The position numbers and the translations under genes were made by a program. The notes below the pieces were generated by a model. That model worked only from the letters and a program-made list of their open reading frames with translations, was not told where the DNA came from and ran no database searches. A stretch of 64,000 nt of DNA from Loxodes magnus (Eukaryota; Ciliophora; Karyorelictea; Loxodida; Loxodidae). This document shows positions 11,614-58,015 of the stretch, piece by piece (positions within the stretch are counted from its first letter, which is position 1; every line of letters starts with the position of its first letter). The stretch covers positions 1-64,000 of the forward strand of contig CAMPDV010000078.1 of the NCBI GenBank assembly GCA_946699065.1, read 5' to 3'.

Positions 11614-11686
11614 TGCCGAAACCCGGGATTGAACCGGGGACCTTTAGATCTTCAGTCTAACGCTCTCCCAACTGAGCTATTTCGGC
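11614..11686 (-). tRNA. tRNA-Phe (GAA), copy A
   Basis: The minus strand gives a full cloverleaf. The acceptor stem GCCGAAA pairs with TTTCGGC and is followed by discriminator A. The D arm is AGCTCAGTTGGGAGAGCG. The anticodon loop CTGAAGA has anticodon GAA, and the T arm contains GGTTCAATCCC. It is close to the canonical eukaryotic tRNA-Phe. No intron and no encoded CCA are present. A run of four T follows the 3' end on the minus strand, the usual polymerase III terminator. The sequence is identical to copy B at 57943-58015. Confidence 0.97.
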
Positions 11687-19302: not shown

Positions 19303-19674
<372 letters not shown>

Positions 19675-20332: not shown

Positions 20333-22016
20333 ATGTCCTAGGTTGTTTAATGTCAATCTTGTAACGGAGATTTCGACGGTTAGGATAAGCTTCCCATGTT
20401 ATTGCCATGTAAGCATGATATGTGTTATCATTGCATTCATGATTAGTATCTAAAAACAAAAAGTATCAAATGTGCAAATTGTCAGCAAGTTTATAAGATT
20501 CATCCTTCAAAGTTGTAAGAAGACAGTTAGTTACTTAAGTATCTTGAGTAAAAGAGTATCATGGAGAGTATATCATTGTTGGAGAATCAATCACTGAGAT
20601 TGCGTTAAGCTTAGACTTAATTGTCTAAGGTCTTAATTACTTTCATCTAGTAGTTGATTAAGCACGTGAATAGTTACGTTTTAAAGGGCAATATTGACTT
20701 ATAAAGGTAGTTGTTTGACTAGGATCGATAAATATAGGAGTAGTTAAGGTTCTTAAAAATCTAGAGGTAAGTAATATCTATTTGTAATAACTATTAGTAA
20801 TAGCCATTAGAATTACTAAGGTTAGGATATTTCTAAGTATGAGTCTAAGGTGTTGAGATTGTTAGATGAGGTTTAGAGGATCATCGATGTGAGGGTATCG
20901 GTTAATGTTTACGAGGAGTTGGACAATTATAAGTTGATTAAAGAGTAAATGGTTAAGGAAGATGATTATTTGAGGAGTGAGATATAGAAGTTGAATGATT
21001 AAGTCTAGAATCAGTAATAATAGTTGACTTAGTTATAAGGTTAGTTGATCTAGTTCTAATAAGTTACGCCAGTAGTGTAGCTTAATTACCCAATTTCTCA
21101 ACCTTAGAAGAAGCCTCAGTAGGCAAAGAAATAGGATATCAGTATAACCATCGTATCGCCGAACAAGAAGACCTTAAGGCTCTAGGTCAAATAAGAAAAT
21201 ACGATAAAGTAGATAAAAGAATAAATCTAACAATAAACTAAGTTACGATCATGAACTCTCGACATCTTAAAGATCAATACTAAACTGAAGGACAATTAAT
21301 CAGTATCGAGTTTATAAATTGTCGATGGGGAATAGCTTCAAATGAGATATAGTAAGTTTAAAAGTTAAATGTATTATTAGATGGTAAGTTTACTATATAA
21401 ATAATTTTAGGAAGTATGTCACATTTTTAAAACATATAGTTAGTAGGTATTTTAATATTCTTTAAACATATAGTTAGTAAGTATTTTAATATTCTTTAAA
21501 CATATAGTTGGTAAGTATTTTAATATTCTTTAAACATATAGGATGTAAGTATTTTAATATTCTTTAAACATATAGGGAGTAAGTATTTTAATATTCTTTA
21601 AACATATAGTTGGTAAGTATTTTAATATTCTTTAAACATATAGTTCGTAAGTATTTTAATATTCTTTAAACAAATAGATTGTAAGTATTTTAATATTCTT
21701 TAAACATATAGATGGTAAGTATTTTAATATTCTTTAAACATATAGATGGTAAGTATTTTAATATTCTTTTAAACATATAGAAAGTAAGTATTTTAATTTT
21801 CCAAATAGAGTGTATTTATTAATATTGATAGTATGTAAGGTGTATTTATAGTTTTTTTTCTGTATTTTAGATCGTAGGTTTAGAATAATCAAAATAGGAG
21901 GTGAGTTATTAATAATGTTAAATAGAATGTATGTTAGTTTAAGGTAATTATAAAGGGGGTGAGTTAGTGTTTTAATGAGTTTAAAATAGGACGTGAGTAT
22001 CAATATAACATAGTGA
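20333..22016 (+). CDS. RING finger / coiled-coil / ubiquitin-like protein with 21 tiny introns
   Basis: Exon 1 (20333-20766) encodes a C3HC4 RING: Cys7, 10, 26, His28, Cys31, 34, 47, 50, with CKHDMCYHC in the middle. A coiled coil follows. A GTAAGT...TTAG intron of 31 bases (20767-20797) must be removed to stay in frame. Exon 2 then gives more coil, a Gln/Pro linker and a ubiquitin-like fold (ITIVSPNKKTLRLQV, NTIKQIKEQI, LDILKINTKLKDNQSV, LQIVDGEQLQMRYS). The frame can stop at the TAA at 21366. If TAA is Gln, it continues through MYYQM and then 19 one-codon exons (peptide ELLLDGLFIMMKSYIENGD) to a TGA at 22014, giving 359 residues. The likely role is an E3 ubiquitin ligase or adaptor. The N-terminus matches the RING-WD genes at 40334 and 43340. 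The RING and UBL calls are firm; the last 25 residues depend on the splicing model. Confidence 0.8.
20767..20797 (+). other. 31-nt spliceosomal-type intron
   Basis: It begins GTAAGT and ends CTATTAG. It lies exactly where the RING-side and UBL-side frames disagree, and its removal joins KIQ to SNSHQNYQ in one frame. It defines the local intron model (about 20-36 nt, GTRNGT...TAG). Confidence 0.75.
21384..22013 (+). repeat. Array of 20 intron-like units separated by exactly 3 nt
   Basis: Every unit starts GT(A/G) and ends AG. Lengths in order are 27, 26, nine of 31, 32, 25, 20, 36, 24, 25, 27, 31 and 21 nt. All 19 spacers between them are exactly three nucleotides. Units 3-12 (21443-21780) are near-identical copies of one 31-nt sequence beginning GTAAGTATTTTAATATTC; seven are identical. 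The remaining units differ from each other in sequence and length but keep splice-site consensus and the 3-nt spacing. Read as introns, the spacers are single-codon exons in the frame of the upstream ubiquitin-like domain. Read as plain DNA, the middle is a 34-bp tandem repeat whose only variable part is the 3-nt window. Confidence 0.8.
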
Positions 22017-22052
22017 TCGATTGGTGAGAGTGAGTGAATGACTTTAAATACT

Positions 22053-22220
22053 TAATTTAAACTCTACTTAATTTAAACTCTACTTAATTTAGCTTTACTT
22101 AATTTAATTTGAACTCTGCTTAATTTAAACTCTACTTAATTTAGCTTTACTTAATTTAATTTGAACTCTGCTTAATTTAAACTCTGCTTAATTTAAACTC
22201 TGCTTAATTTGAACTCTACT
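22053..22220. repeat. 16-bp minisatellite (CTTAATTTAAACTCTR) with 52-bp higher-order period
   Basis: About ten units. The variants CTTAATTTAGCTTTA and CTTAATTTAATTTGAACTCTG recur in the same order twice. It follows directly after the one-codon exon array. Confidence 0.8.
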
Positions 22221-22229
22221 AAACAAAAG

Positions 22230-23000
22230 TTTATTAATTAAGTATTTGTATATAAGGGGTATTAAAGGTATTAATGATTAATAATAGTATATTTGAGTAT
22301 ATCTAAATATATTTAATATATCTTTAATATATCTAAATATCTTTAATATATTTTTATTTATCATTTGAATATATATTATTGTGTTATATTATTATGAAGT
22401 TATATTATAATTGATATTATCATAATTGATATTATTATAATTGATATTTTAATTATATTTTTTTATTTATTTTTGATTTTGTATAAGGTTGTATGAGTGT
22501 GGAGAATGGGAATAAAAGGTATAAGTTATTTTATAATACTGTATTTTTAAGTATTGGATTTAGAATATTTAGTATTGTAGTTTAATAATATAAGTAGTTG
22601 TTAAGGATTTATTTTTTTTAAGGGTAAAGGTATATTTTTGAAGAGTAATTAGAGGAAGTGTATATTGTTTTTACTTTCTAAAAGTGATAAAAGTGATAAA
22701 AGTGATAAAAGTTGTAAAAGTGTAAAAAGGTAAAGAAAGTAAAAGGACAAGAATTGTGTAAATTAAGACTGAGATATTTTTTTTAAATAAAAGGAAGGAA
22801 GAGTGTAGTTGTAAAGAAATGAGAAAGATATGTTTTTAAAGAGTTTATAGAAAGTTATTTTTTTAATATGTATTAGATAATTTCTAAATTATTTAAAAGT
22901 ATTGAAAGTTGTTTAAATAATTAAAATAATTAAAAGTATTTAAAATAATTAAAATAATTAAAATAATTAATTTATTTGAATATAAGTTGTTTTTTGTTTA
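22230..23000. other. Low-complexity stretch
   Basis: It holds short tandem runs: ATAATTGATATT units near 22410-22450, AAAAGTGAT units near 22678-22720, and AAAATAATT units near 22915-22970. Between them is G- and A-rich sequence. No gene is recognised. Confidence 0.5.
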
Positions 23001-23008
23001 GAATTTGT

Positions 23009-24325
23009 GAAAATTTTAATTTTGTTTTTTTGCTCAGCGTTTTCCACTATAGGGAATTTTTGGGACGGAATAAACTTGTGAGATTTGGGATAAAAAATTT
23101 TGAAAAAGGAATAAGAAAAGGTGTAAAAGGGGATAAAGGTTAGTGAGTGGTTGTTAAATAATTTTGAAAGTGAATTTTTTTGAAAGTGAAAATTTTTGAG
23201 AAGGGTATAAAAAGTCCATAATGAATTATTTTTAATATTTTTTGTATTTTTTTTGGAATTAGAGAAAAGTAAGAAAGATTTTTTGTTTGGTGGAAAGAGT
23301 ATAAAAGGGAAAAATTTTTTTAATTTTGGAAATGGAATAAAAATTAAAAATAAAAATTGTTTGTGAAAGGTAGTAAAAAGAATATGATATGGTGTTTTTG
23401 ATTTAAAAAATTGATTTTTTTGTGGAGTTAGAGAAAAGTATTTTTTTTTTTATAAAGTCAATTTTAAAAAAAAATTTGTTGTATGAATTTGTTAAGAGTA
23501 ATATGAAAAATGGTGTTAGGAAAAGTAAAAAAGTTTTGAAGATGTTTAAAATGTGAAAAATTTAATTTTGTTTTCTTGCTCAGCGTTTTCCACTATAGGG
23601 AATTTTTGGGACGGAATAAACTTGCGAGATTTGGGATAAAAGATTTCTAAATGAAATAAGGAAAGGTGAAAAGGGAATTAAGGGGAGTAAGTAATGTTAA
23701 AATTTTCGAAATGAAAATATTGTGTAAAGAAAGAATAAAATTTATAATAGAATTTTTGAAAAAAGTTATTTTTTTAAAGAGAAAAGCTATAAAAGTGGGG
23801 AAAATTTTGAATTTTGGAAATGGAATAAAAAAATTTCTAAAAATAGAAAGTTTGGAAACAGTAGTTAAAAAGCGAAATAGTAGTTGAAAAAGTAAAAATA
23901 GATTTTGAAGAGGTACAAAACGCGAAAATTTTAATTTTGTTTTTTTGCTCAGCGTTTTACACTATAGGGAAATTTTCGGACGGAACAAAATTTTTTTTTG
24001 GAATTTTAAAAGAAGGAAAAATTTTTTAGATTTTTAGTAATCAATTTTTTTTTAATTTAATAATTTTTTTTATACTATGAATTGGAAAAATTCAAAAAGT
24101 AAAGATAATTAATTATTAATTAAATTTTTTTAATCTAATTTAAATAAAATACATTTTTATAATTTGAGTGGAGGTGAGTCTAAGAAAGTTATAATCTATA
24201 TCAGTTAATTTTTGTTTAACTGATAAAATCGATTTAAGATGTAAAAATTTAATTTTTGTTTTTCGCTCTGAATTTTAAAATATAGAAGATTTTTCGGACG
24301 GAACAAAAATTTTAGAAATTTTGAA
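23009..24325 (+). repeat. Four diverged repeat units sharing a conserved ~75-bp core
   Basis: Cores begin near 23009, 23553, 23921 and 24241. Each has AAAATTTTAATTTTG, then TTGCTCAGCGTTTTCCACTA, TAGGGAATTTTTGGGACGGA and ATAAACTTG. Cores 1 and 2 are almost identical; core 3 is close; core 4 keeps only CGCTCTGAATTTT, ATAGAAG and TTTTTCGGACGGAACAAAA. Core spacings are about 546, 369 and 318 bp. The intervals are purine-rich (GGAAATGGAATAAAA recurs). The high conservation of the core against its spacers suggests a functional element or recent duplication. The standard-code ORF at 23666-23887 lies in a spacer and is not convincing. Confidence 0.65.
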
Positions 24326-37259: not shown

Positions 37260-38500
37260 TTAAAATTTTATATTTAAAGAACAGCTTTAAAAATTTCTAT
37301 CACTATATATAACAAAAAAAATTAAATAATAACTAAGATTTATGTGTTTCAAATTAATAGTAAATTAATACAAAAGGAAATTTTTTTTAATTCGTAAAAT
37401 AAAAGATTTAGGCCTTAATATTCTTCATTAACTATATATTATTTTGCTATATTTTTAGCTTTATTAATGATTAACTTAGTACAAACATATTAGTTTTAGG
37501 CTGATTCTATTTTTACATTTAGGTAAATTATTTCATAATTTTATTATTTTGATTAGATTTTTTAATATACTTTTAATTATTTTATTTTCTTTCGAGGTTT
37601 AATGAAAATTAAATAAAAATTAATTAATTTTATAAAAAAATTTAAATTCAGTGAGTTAATACCGTGCTTTAAATAATTTTATATATATTATAACTATTTT
37701 TATAGTTTATCTTTTGATTCTTTTTAATTTTATCATAAATTATAATTTTTTAATTAAGAAGTAGAAATTAATAAATTACTATTCTTTTACTTTTTAAACA
37801 TAAATTTCTTAATTTATTTTTATTAATTTTCACTTTTGTATACAGGTAAATATTTTTAACTAAATCTTTTTATTTACTTAAACGTTTTCCTTATATAATA
37901 TCTTAAAAAAAATGAGCTCAAAATTTCCTCCTTATTTATTTACTCTTTTTTGCGCAGTTGAATTAAAATTTAATTACAACAATTTTAATATATTTTAATT
38001 ATTTAATAACATTTCCTTTATAATTCTAACTACTGCTCTTTATATAATTTTTAAGTAATAAATAATTGCTAACATTATTTTCCATATTTAGATTTTAAAT
38101 AAAACTCCTTATTTTTATAAATCAAATTATGCATTTTTAACAATGCTTTACTACTCTCTTTTTATAATTTCAACTCTCCATTAAAAATTATTTGATAATT
38201 TTCTCTTTTTAAGATGTATTCTTCCTTTCCATTAAAAATATAACATTTTTTTAATTCTCATTTTTATATTTATCAAATTTATAAATTTAAATTATTAAAT
38301 TAAGTACTTTTTTTTAATTTTTATAGTTAGAAGCTTAATTATTCTTTCATTGATTTCATATTTCCTCTTTTTATAATTAAATAGCTTTGCATATATATCC
38401 TTAATTTATTTTAATTTTTTTAATTTATCATTTTTCTTCTTAAAGTTCTATTTTTTTCTCTTTTAAATCTGAACTAAAATATTTTACCTTTACTTACTTG
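37260..38500. other. AT-rich stretch, nothing seen
   Basis: T-rich on the plus strand. No supported gene or RNA. Confidence 0.4.
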
Positions 38501-38526
38501 TTCAATATGCTATTTACATACTTTCT

Positions 38527-40334
38527 CTACATATTTCACTTCTTCACATTTTTATCCAAACTACCTGATGTTATTCACTAGTCATCACTACTAAGTACCA
38601 CAGTCCTTACTTCAGCTGTATGCCCCGTTAAAGTACATGCATATTCTCCTTTTTAGAAATTCCATATCTTTATTGATTTATCTTCGTTTCTTGATACTAT
38701 AAGACTATTGTCGCTTGTAAATGTAACTCCTATTCAACCTTAATACCCTGCTATTATTCTTATACACTATCCAGTCTAAAAATTACATATCTTAATCATC
38801 TTATCAGAACTTCCAGAAACGATTCCTCTCTGGTCACTTGATATTACTACATAATTTACAGATTATGTATGTCCCTTCAAAGTACTCTTTAACAAGTTAG
38901 CTTGTAAATTTCATATCTTTATTGTATTATCTATACTTCCAGATACAATATAGTTGTTTTCACTTGAAATTGCTATAGATAAAACTTTACTCGTATGTCC
39001 CTACAAGGAACTTTTTAATTAATTAGTTTTGAAATTCCAAATTTTTATCGTATTATCATAAATACAAGAAACGATTCACTTCTGGTCATTTGTTAGAACT
39101 ACTAAGTAAACAGAACTATTATGTCCAAATAAAGTACTCTTTAACTAACCGGACACTAAATCACATATCTTTATACTATTGTAATCTCTTTCAGATATTA
39201 TATAGTTGCTGTCACTCGATATAGATGCAGTTAAAACAGAACCTGTATGTCCCTTCAAAGTACTTTTTAATTAGTCACTATTAAAGTCCCATATTTTTAT
39301 CTTATTATCATCGCTTACAGAAACAATTCATTTTTGTCTCTAGATATAGTTACAGATAATATATTTTTTGTATGTCCCTACCTTATTTGATCTGTGTATA
39401 AAAAGATACCTTAATCTTAAAATTTATTAAATTAATTAGTAGCTTTCTATTAATTATTTACTGTTTTGTTTCTCTATAAATATTTTAAAATAAGTACATT
39501 AAATTTATGATTCTTAAGATTTTATCCATTACCTCTGAAATTTATATTAAACTTACTTCTGGTTTTTATAAATATTCTTTATAGAATTCTTGGTACATCT
39601 ACTTTAATTAGTCTCTTTCTTAGATTGATATATTTTAAAATTTCATTAACTAGCTTGATAATAGTTTTATCTAACTCGTTTAATGTTTAATAATCTCTTT
39701 ATGTTATTCTATCTGTCTACGGTAATCTTATATCTTACATTTAAAGTTATTGCTTAATTAAAAATAATTTTAGTCGTGGTTAATTAAAACAATATAGGCC
39801 TGCTAAGCTTTTAATATTGCACTTTAAACTTTTTAAATTATTTAGGAATATTCTAAATTTGAAGCAACATGTCGTTTATTTCATTTCAATTAGCTTTATA
39901 ACTCCTGTAATTTATTTATCTCCTTCTTTGTTGTTACTTAGTGATTTATAGTTCTTCATATATTTTAGAACTATTTGTAAATAAATAATTTTCGAGGTCC
40001 TCTAGAAGTTTATTTACTATAGCCAGCTTTATCTTTTTTATCTTCTATAACTCTTAACTTACTCTATTCTCTAATGATTTTAACTATACTATATTTGATT
40101 ATTTAAAGCTTTGCTTGATAGTGTCTATTAATAGTTTATCACTTTATAATTAAGTAGGTGAGATTTAGTATGAATTTTGCAGTTAATATCCAAACATTAG
40201 ATTTATTTGACTTTAAGAACTAGTTATGAATACACTCTTAATTCATTTTATGAACTACATTCAAGTATCATAGGAACCTTCACCTAGTCATCAAAATCTC
40301 CATTACAAGCTTTACATTTGATGTTTACGAACAT
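38527..40334 (-). CDS. Degenerate RING / coiled-coil / WD40-repeat protein
   Basis: The minus strand from the ATG at 40334 begins MFVNIKCKACNGDFDDQ and continues VPMILEC, the same N-terminal module as the RING gene at 20333, but the His and later Cys of the RING are missing. About 350 residues of Gln/Lys/Leu-rich coiled coil follow. Then come at least seven WD40 blades between about 39400 and 38530: KIKIWDF, GHTGSV, SIKICDL, NTIKIWNF, GHTSKV, NTIKIWNL, GHTQSV, KMIKICNF, KSIKIWNF, GHTAEV, KNVKKWN. TGA supplies the Trp in two of these KIW/KKW motifs where sister blades use TGG, and TAG TGA reads QW in DDQWITSGS. A deleted base in the A-run near 39340 breaks the first blade. The likely role is a scaffold or ubiquitin-ligase relative that has lost zinc binding. 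Confidence 0.8.
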
Positions 40335-43339: not shown

Positions 43340-44914
43340 ATGTCAATAAAATGCTAATGTTGAGATTGTAAGAGTGAATTTTATATTTAAGTAAAGATTC
43401 CAATGATCCTTCCTTGTAATCACTAATTATGCTACGAATGCGTTTAAAAGAAATTTTAGTAGTCAAAGTAAATCTAATATTCAATTACAAATTGTGAAAA
43501 AATACTAAAATACATCCTACCTTACTTAGAAGTGATGAAAAGTTATTAAATATCATCAAATAAATTTAATTTTAAATAATTTAGAATTTATGCAAATTCA
43601 GGAAAATGATATAAATGTAGGATTATAAAACTTAAAAAGAACAAAGCTTAATGTAGTTAATAAGTTTATATAAGATTTAGAAAATTAATACATGGTTAAG
43701 TTTTCAAATATCTAAAGAGAGTTGTAAAGTTTAGTAACTACATGTAAATAAGAAAATATTAAACTATTAAATTTTTTTAATAGATTAAAAGTAAGAAATG
43801 GTAAAGTTAGCTTTTAGGATTTAGATTGAAATCACTTAAATGAAAAGACGCAAAGATAAATTAAAAAAACATAAATTAAAATAAAGAATCTAATGAACTT
43901 TTAGCGGAATATATTTGAGGAAAATAAAAATTAAGAGTTAAACATTAAAAAAGTAAAAAGGCAATCGAATAGTAAAAAGTTTGCATAAAAAAATTAGTGA
44001 ATTAAGTTTAGCAGGTTTAGAGTTAGTTATTGATTACTTAATATTAAAATTATTCAGGTGAGAGATTAGTTAGATAAAGTAAACCTTAAGATATAATGGA
44101 GTAAGAACTAGCTATTAAAAATTAAATTAATATTTATAATAGAGCAAGAAGATAAATATATAGTTTTTATGGAAAATATTAAATAAAATTCAAAATAATT
44201 AAATAGATTTAGATTCAATAATTAAGAATCTCATAAATATAATTCAAATCAATCAAAGAACGGAAAATCTTTTGATTTAGTTTAACTATAATCTGAATAG
44301 AACCAACATTGGATGCTATAAATTTTAAATCTAACAAGGAATCAACCTTAAATTTAATAAGCAGTTGCCAATGCCATAACTATTTAAAAAATACATGAAT
44401 TATGTATTTACCCATCAAAATTACCAGAACATTGATTTAACTAAATCGGATCTTTCGGATACTACATTCACTAACTGCAATTACTCCAACTCAAATCTAA
44501 CTTTATCGAACCTTCGAAACTCCAAATTCGTCAGCTTAGACTTATTCAGCGCTAATTTATATTCAATCTCATCTGAATATTCTCACATCCTTGTTGGCCA
44601 CACGTATTATGTCTCTTTCTTTTCGACATAAAGTGATAGCAAGGTCATAGTTTCTGGAAGTGGAGATAAAACTATGAGGAGATGGAATGGAGATACAGGG
44701 AAGTGTGATGAGTGGTCACATGTATATGTCTGAGCTGTAAAGATATCAAGTGACGGTAAGGTCTTAATTTCTGGAAGTTTAGATGCAATTGTTTGAATTT
44801 TGAACTTTCTTTCTGCCTAATGTCTTAAGATTCTTTCTGGACATTCTAATTGAGTGTATTTGATTATATTTTCAAGTGATGAAAAGTTTATAATAATGAT
44901 AATAACAATAATAA
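43340..44914 (+). pseudogene. RING / coiled-coil / pentapeptide / WD40 protein, interrupted by element E5
   Basis: The ATG at 43340 begins MSIKCQCWDCKSEFYIQV with PMILPCNHQLCYECV. Its Cys/His spacing (7, 10, 26, His28, 31, 34) is identical to the RING at 20333, though the last Cys pair is lost in a frame slip near 43490. After it comes TKIHPTLLRSDEKLL, matching YKIHPSKLQEDSQLL of that gene. A long Gln/Lys coil follows. From 44395 the frame carries pentapeptide-like repeats (NIDLTKSDLSDTTFTNCNYS, NLTLSNLRNS), then WD40 blades (HILVGHTYYV, VIVSGSGDKTMRRWNG, VLISGSLDAIVWI, ILSGHSNWVY). The last blade stops at SSDEKFI, where element E5 begins. No WD continuation was found beyond E5, so the gene is 3'-truncated or decayed. 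Confidence 0.7.
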
Positions 44915-57942: not shown

Positions 57943-58015
57943 TGCCGAAACCCGGGATTGAACCGGGGACCTTTAGATCTTCAGTCTAACGCTCTCCCAA
58001 CTGAGCTATTTCGGC
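57943..58015 (-). tRNA. tRNA-Phe (GAA), copy B
   Basis: Identical to the gene at 11614-11686 over all 73 bases, although the surrounding sequence of the two blocks differs by many indels. The same TTTT terminator follows. It was identified by the cloverleaf, the CTGAAGA anticodon loop and GGTTCAATCCC in the T arm. Confidence 0.97.

Follow-up and report, generated by a model that had tools for sequence, protein, structure and literature searches.

The 64,000-nt window of the Loxodes magnus genome analyzed here, part of contig C78, contains a gene whose 3′ portion is an array of 21 GT-AG units and 20 spacers, each spacer exactly 3 nt long (21352-22013). Very probably, judging from comparison of the gene's many relatives, the units are tiny spliceosomal introns and the spacers are true exons that together would make a TRIM-like E3 ligase with a hypervariable tail. 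The splicing part of this explanation is held with high confidence, and with respect to a diversity function for the array we consider the case evenly balanced. Comparison of paralogues establishes how the array is built, its exclusive 3-nt period and selection on the joined spacers of the array end in phase 1, where each 3-nt exon closes one codon with two bases and opens the following codon with its third. The original prediction had proposed a series of one-codon exons at this site, and its core is strongly supported by the paralogue comparison; its frame and unit number were incorrect and its scope was incomplete. The predicted features are as follows.

20333-20766, plus strand: exon 1, RING finger and start of a coiled coil (MSQVVQCQSCNGDF...), open with TAA and TAG read as glutamine
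20767-20797, plus strand: ordinary 31-nt GT-AG intron inside the coding region, needed for the 329-codon frame
20798-21351, plus strand: exon 2, coiled coil, linker and ubiquitin-like domain, ending ...LQMRY + A|
21352-21380, plus strand: array intron 1, 29 nt, GTAAGTTTAAAAGTTAAATGTATTATTAG, from the chain scan; sets phase 1
21381-21383, plus strand: 3-nt exon ATG, completing AAT (N) and starting GGA (G)
21384-21442, plus strand: array introns 2 and 3 (27 and 26 nt) with 3-nt exons GAA and TTA
21443-21783, plus strand: variable part, introns 4-13, copies of GTAAGTATTTTAATATTCTTTAAACATATAG (nine of 31 nt, one of 32 nt)
21443-21783, plus strand: ten 3-nt exons of eight kinds, after introns 4-13 of the variable part
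21784-22013, plus strand: constant end, introns 14-21 (20-36 nt); divergent paralogues have similar exons and other introns
21784-22013, plus strand: constant-end 3-nt exons between introns 14-21, AGT TAT ATC GAG AAT GGG GAC
22014-22027, plus strand: last exon, joined frame CTG ATC GAT TGG TGA, stop at 22025-22027
22049-22220, plus strand: 16-nt tandem repeat (TACTTAATTTAAACTC) just 3′ of the stop, outside the protein

A chain scan of both strands of the window, with gaps of 1-12 nt, returned chains of more than two units solely at the array and at gap 3; an extra gap-7 chain was a by-product of the same array. All 20 units originally described at 21384-22013, with their exact 3-nt spacers, were recovered. 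The total rises to 21 units and 20 spacers, in place of the 20 and 19 first counted, through the additional unit GTAAGTTTAAAAGTTAAATGTATTATTAG (21352-21380) and its spacer ATG. Ten of the units were said to be copies of one 31-nt sequence, and ten copies of GTAAGTATTTTAATATTCTTTAAACATATAG are indeed present, although only nine are 31 nt long and one is 32 nt. As is expected of introns, GTRNGT-like 5′ ends and 3′ AG ends are found on units that differ in sequence. A segmentation parser that weighted exon lengths of 0-12 nt equally, and was thus agnostic to exon length, likewise gave 3 nt for all gaps of the window array, with one pair of units merged. Elsewhere in the window it reported eight units at 20767-21134 (gaps of 11, 12, 1, 10, 7, 1 and 11 nt) and four units on the minus strand at 38474-38610, irregular runs that lack a 3-nt period and are taken as parser false positives.

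The host gene is TRIM-like in its predicted order of RING, coiled coil and ubiquitin-like (UBL) domain. The encoded protein begins MSQVVQCQSC, within a RING motif, and exon 1 gives a Pfam match to zf-C3HC4 (E=5.6e-4, 20.2 bits) just under the cut-off of 21. Exon 2 matches Rad60-SLD (E=2.8e-4) and ubiquitin (E=8e-4), both under the cut-off, and the coiled coil was recognized by eye. In what follows, L009-L046 denote RING-family copies of this gene and L047-L070 denote divergent loci. Among five divergent members scanned, RING matches occurred in three, a B-box in one and UBL matches in three, mostly under the cut-offs. Specifically, zf-C3HC4 in L050 (E=2.3e-4) exceeds its cut-off, the B-box match was confined to L047 among six proteins scanned (E=3.1e-4, under the cut-off), and L051 has an APG6_N coiled-coil match that is also under the cut-off.

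In NCBI translation table 27, UAA and UAG encode glutamine, and the use of TAA and TAG as sense codons in the window gene fits this table. L. magnus uses table 27, in which UGA is either tryptophan or stop (PMC11441545). An in-frame TGA lies within the UBL domain at 21252-21254, where L022, L028, L034 and L035 have TGG, and TGA in this gene appears to serve as W as well as stop. In phase 1 the stop after the array is the TGA at 22025-22027, with the qualification that the same codon is also sense here. As predicted, removal of the 31-nt GT-AG intron at 20767-20797, or of its counterpart, yields one 329-codon frame in the window and in 30 copies.

Complete open reading frames were present in 35 of 39 copies (the window and 38 others), comprising 31 of 329 codons, two of 328 (L039 and L040) and two of 322 (L038 and L045). 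Of those remaining, L036 is frameshifted under the splice model used, and the first intron of L019, L042 and L044 was unmatched by the regular expression. For the 31 copies with a 987-nt CDS (25 distinct sequences), pN/pS was 0.38 in the RING, 0.40 in the coiled coil, 0.87 in the linker and 0.97 in the UBL domain, and the front of the protein therefore seems constrained and the rear relaxed or diversified. With their intact frames and low pN/pS in the RING and coiled coil, the RING-family genes look functional; the UBL value may reflect relaxed selection. A few codons of the UBL exon (20798-21351, with homologues in L009-L046) vary in a mosaic manner between copies, one example being TAC/TGA/GGA/CGA/CAA/TTA, where TGA as tryptophan is one of the alternatives.

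We searched the genome (705,730,643 bases in 7,843 contigs) for further arrays. A DNA search gave at least 74 matching stretches, many of them on C78, and all 38 loci fetched from those matches carry the same kind of array. A single chain of 18-125 units was parsed in 24 of these 38 loci and two or three pieces in the other 14; most split arrays join once GTAAA starts are allowed, with L038 and L045 still stopping after 9 units. Over 35 distinct RING-family loci, window included, segmentation placed 885 of 892 short gaps at 3 nt. The longest array, in L041, has about 125 units, and its triplets are mostly AAT, which in phase 1 would give a long glutamine run of TAA codons. On the 940-kb contig C78, a RING-family array or tail was seen at fourteen positions, several of them 35-50 kb apart, which suggests a gene cluster. 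Sequence similar to the 16-nt repeat of the window likewise follows the stop in the RING-family copies inspected, and this repeat is perhaps a 3′ UTR or terminator element.

The 3-nt period extends across the genome. A three-unit GTAAGT pattern with 3-nt spacers gave 1190 + 513 = 1,703 overlapping matches genome-wide and none when reversed, and neither 2-nt nor 4-nt spacers gave a single genome-wide match; among the spacings tested (2, 3 and 4 nt), 3 nt is exclusive. A variant of the pattern that barred most RING-type introns gave 4175 + 3640 matches, again with none for the reversed form. In terms of copy number, the tail pattern TAT..ATC matched 204 times genome-wide (control, 1) and the array end motif AAT..GGG..GAY 321 times (control, 0), figures that point to hundreds of gene copies and that haplotype duplicates in the assembly may inflate. 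Within RING-family arrays, 1041 of 1046 introns are 20-37 nt long. Published L. magnus introns have a mean of 19.3 nt and a mode of 17 nt, and 93% do not exceed 25 nt (PMC11441545). Most of them are shorter than the array introns, a point that counts against the spliced-exon reading.

Divergent loci have intron families of their own and retain the 3-nt spacers. Segmentation of 21 such loci gave 440 of 530 short gaps at 3 nt, 65 at 0 nt and 25 at other lengths, with 478 of 551 parsed introns at 20-37 nt. Of 63 Markov shuffles, 45 contained no intron run; no run was longer than 11, and the gap distribution was flat. In the divergent loci whose upstream DNA was inspected (L047-L051, L068 and L070), UBL-like sequence precedes the array, as judged by eye. 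L052-L067 represent 16 of 100 listed TAT..ATC places, and their TAT and ATC exons were thus preselected. The zero-nt spacers count against our explanation. L062, which has 28-nt units without a spacer, is the source of 42 of the 65 zero-nt gaps. Zero-nt spacers were also seen at the array start of L047, L050 and L051, at the same place in all three (AATATAG|GTAAGT or GTAATT). These last resemble recursive splice sites.

The evidence that most directly supports true exons comes from the tail. Array intron 1 interrupts a codon between its first and second bases (..AGA TAT A|GTAAGT), and in the resulting phase 1 the joined tail triplets of the window read NGIIIGWIVHYDEKLYREWGLIDW, followed by TGA at 22025-22027. 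The last six joined exons mostly spell Y-R-E-W-G-L, followed by 2-4 residues and TGA. We compared this tail across 25 loci (the window and L047-L070) with a parser in which GGG was the one set exon and the first exon could be TAT, TTT or TGT. A constant end was parsed in 20 of the 25, with none in L057, L063, L066, L067 and L068. In 18 of these 20 the second exon is ATC and the six joined exons spell Y[RHQL][EK]WG[LF] in phase 1, while L049 and L070 have WG alone in common with the other tails. Over pairs of the 18 loci, synonymous to nonsynonymous changes numbered 148:78 when the codons were read in phase 1, compared with 55:228 for phase 0 and 69:136 for phase 2; since the pairs are non-independent and some loci are close relatives, these counts are presented as a contrast between frames and carry no probability.

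Tail variation falls largely at the second base of the exon, which is the third position of the codon (CGA/CGT/CGC, GAA/GAG, GGA/GGT/GGC). The third exon is GAG, GTG, GCG, GAA, ATG, TTG or AAG and completes the arginine codon CGA, CGT or CGC in 14 of the 18 loci, the fourth is AAT or AGT (giving GAA or GAG), and the sixth is G-A/T/C-Y (giving GGA, GGT or GGC). The phase 0 reading of the original prediction (ELLLDG...) was rejected in favor of phase 1, because change in phase 0 is mostly nonsynonymous across the 18 loci, the synonymous excess lies in phase 1, and array intron 1 sets that phase. Such codon-level selection on the triplets in turn implies their joining in the mRNA. All 33 distinct RING-family arrays examined also end [LI]Y[RGL][EK]WG in phase 1, with a parser that required TAT, ATC/ATG and GAG/GAA/TAG exons. 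Tail exons were 0.84 identical in 15 of 23 loci, a value biased upward as these 15 matched a regular expression that fixed parts of the tail exons. Identity among their tail introns was 0.59 at the same position and 0.51 at others; the introns are thus slightly more alike at the same position than elsewhere, which counts against the spliced-exon reading.

Stop codons were less informative. In 17 of the 18 loci, the first TGA at least 4 nt past the last intron is in phase 1, the exception being L065, whose end after the last intron reads LIVIN*. For the 36 RING-family loci covered (38 were fetched), a phase 1 TGA follows within 3-6 codons in 17 and at 10-11 codons in 18, and none was found in L044; among 21 divergent loci, 13 have one within 3-6 codons. 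In phase 0, TGA is often immediate after the array, and overall this spacing is a weak discriminator between the frames. Within the variable part, with L041 left out, there was no signal of TGA avoidance (6 observed against 5.9 expected). The predicted joined triplets of the window tail include the 20-mer TATATCGAGAATGGGGACTG, with variant forms TATATCG[ATC]GAATGGGGA[CT]. A genome search for TATATCGAGAATGGGGACTG with up to 2 mismatches gave no matches, and by this search no spliced retrocopy or DNA-spliced copy was found.

The variable middle of the array behaves in the opposite way to the constant end: its introns are uniform and its exons are not. Bead introns of the RING family differ pairwise by 1.35%, versus 69.5%, or near random, for the exons between them; the intron figure refers to the 31-nt introns (462 of 519), with L041, L039, L040 and L044 left out and identical copies kept. 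Among 477 triplets (L041 left out), 37 of the 64 possible occur, and this restricted set counts against our explanation. CAG, TAG and GAG are absent and GTN is nearly absent. Avoidance of cryptic splice sites fits this composition in part, and we set it aside as proof because AAG and AGA are common. DGR-like mutagenesis was also set aside; the triplets vary at all three positions. Fifteen pairs of copies have identical upstream sequence over 560 nt. Their arrays are identical in 10 pairs and one bead apart in 2, and in the remaining three (L028 with L034, L035 and L036) 8-9 of 24-25 beads differ. Related arrays (L022, L028 and L034) show bead duplications, for example of TTC TAT or GGT TAT. 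These bead-wise differences indicate change by whole beads, with a homogenized unit that ends at the splice sites.

Taken together, these observations lead us to propose the following model. The spliceosome would remove all 21 introns by intron definition, and would need several rounds to do so because neighboring introns share a single 3-nt exon. The mature mRNA would encode a TRIM-like E3 ligase (RING, coiled coil and UBL domain) with a tail of variable residues, the end of which would mostly read L-Y-R-E-W-G-L-x-x before the stop. A bead, consisting of an intron of about 31 nt and one 3-nt exon, could be gained, lost, swapped or skipped without a frameshift, as every bead keeps the frame. 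The near-identical introns are the likely substrate of exchange, through recombination or through reverse splicing of an abundant identical intron, which would leave the exons untouched. Across hundreds of gene copies, the hypervariable peptide tail might then amount to a repertoire of recognition tails. The fullest form of this idea, in which E3-ligase-like copies with one-triplet-exon tails use introns as exchange points, shuffle at single-triplet resolution and multiply the outcome by alternative skipping, is a possibility that we favor slightly less than its negation.

The main competing view accepts splicing of the triplets and regards their variability as neutral, with a tolerated tail whose beads drift like a minisatellite and have no diversity function. 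We find this less likely than not. The mostly AAT array of L041 looks like plain expansion, linker and UBL pN/pS are near 1, bead duplications separate the related copies L022, L028 and L034, and 10 of the 15 pairs with identical upstream DNA share identical arrays as well. Tandem duplication, however, would be expected to diverge introns and exons together, which is at odds with values of 1.35% and 69.5% whose boundary lies at the splice sites, and drift does not account for an array end conserved over divergent members.

The remaining readings fare considerably worse. The array could be a tandem repeat within one long intron (21352-22013), such that exon 2 is joined directly to 22014 and the triplets are skipped. 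Since all spacers are 3 nt, full removal would keep the frame (A|TG ATC GAT TGG TGA), and the published intron set, made with MAX_INTRON_LEN=40 (PMC11441545), would miss introns of this length; we nonetheless judge this improbable, as sense triplets are kept over loci with other introns and change mainly synonymously in one frame. It is still harder to regard the array as unspliced, either as a 34-nt coding repeat that is read through with few TGA stops or as 3′ UTR. Reading TAA and TAG as glutamine does leave a long part of the unspliced window array open, but other members have bead introns (of 28, 29, 30, 34 and 36 nt, among others) that differ in sequence and frame, GT..AG plus 3 nt is kept despite these differences, and YREWGL-like spliced ends occur in 18 of 25 loci. 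The ciliate host also brings to mind internal eliminated sequences, which would be cut from DNA and not from RNA. This appears the least credible reading of all, given unit ends of GT..AG instead of TA, the failure to find a unit-free copy with TATATCGAGAATGGGGACTG (two or fewer mismatches) in an assembly taken as macronuclear because its size matches the published 706-Mbp macronuclear one, and the lack of detected classical IESs in the L. magnus study (PMC11441545).

With respect to known systems, splicing of serial one-triplet exons would most closely resemble the micro-exon genes (MEGs) of schistosomes, which also have serial very short exons, mostly in multiples of three, and variable proteins, and in which in-frame exon skipping is possible (PMC10526429). 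MEG exons are 6-81 bp (3-81 in the abstract) and mostly 15 bp, with 10-20 per gene; their introns are about 0.1-5 kb and their products are secreted (PMC10526429). The Loxodes array differs in its 3-nt exons, introns of mostly 20-37 nt, up to about 125 units and placement in a RING/UBL gene. At the sequence level it thus has the consecutive frame-preserving micro-exons of a MEG and lacks the 15-bp exons and long introns. In Fusarium CYP621A, a 1-nt exon is included with RNA read support; it stands alone, and the rest of that gene has a normal layout (PMC12940212). The tiny introns of ciliates (Loxodes, Stentor and Nyctotherus) are a further parallel in being very short. Introns of 3n length are depleted in Loxodes, and introns 3 nt apart are unreported in the available text of that work (PMC11441545).

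The protein itself is reminiscent of TRIM (RBCC) E3 ligases in its RING, possible B-box in one member, coiled-coil-like region and variable C-terminal part, and it differs in the C-terminal UBL domain and micro-exon tail, with most Pfam scores under cut-off. To our knowledge, a UBL domain with a micro-exon tail is not among the known TRIM C-terminal domains. Introner elements and minisatellites share with the array near-identical introns and a tandem repeat organization, respectively. The array is set apart from both by the UBL-like superfamily found upstream (L047-L051, L068 and L070) and by repeat identity that stops at the splice sites. In terms of the spread over unrelated genes that is expected of introners, all loci fetched from the DNA-search matches carry arrays, and the survey was limited to those loci.

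The original prediction had suggested that a long series of such exons is without known precedent. This is borne out as far as the literature searched extends: a single 1-nt exon is documented, and no report of serial 3-nt exons or of this gene family was found in the titles and abstract openings of the top-ranked open-licence PubMed Central articles. On that literature a series of one-triplet exons would be new in kind, and a stricter view would regard it as the micro-exon gene taken to an extreme. Earlier work could have overlooked the arrays, because the published L. magnus introns derive from Hisat2 mappings with intron length limited to 40 nt, and gene predictions lying over tandem repeats were picked out as a separate set (PMC11441545). 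We also infer that aligners would be unable to place 3-nt exons. A public L. magnus RNA-seq set is available (PRJEB55324; PMC11441545). If our explanation is correct, one-triplet exons in series and in hundreds of copies would bring exon shuffling near to its smallest possible scale. It would then be testable how, and in what order, a spliceosome handles introns 3 nt apart, how introns homogenize as exons diversify, and whether a protist builds a variable-recognition repertoire from introns.

Several other features of the window were recorded alongside the array. A perfect (ATAA) repeat of 92.5 copies lies at 19304-19673, about 0.7 kb upstream of the gene, and the segment directly after the gene (22001-24000) is strongly C-poor, with a GC skew of 0.60. 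Two tRNA-Phe (GAA) genes of equal score are found on the minus strand, 46 kb apart, at 11614-11686 and 57943-58015. When another 19 reading frames from the window were scanned against Pfam, a single one gave matches, at 44062-44733, to pentapeptide-repeat and WD40 families.
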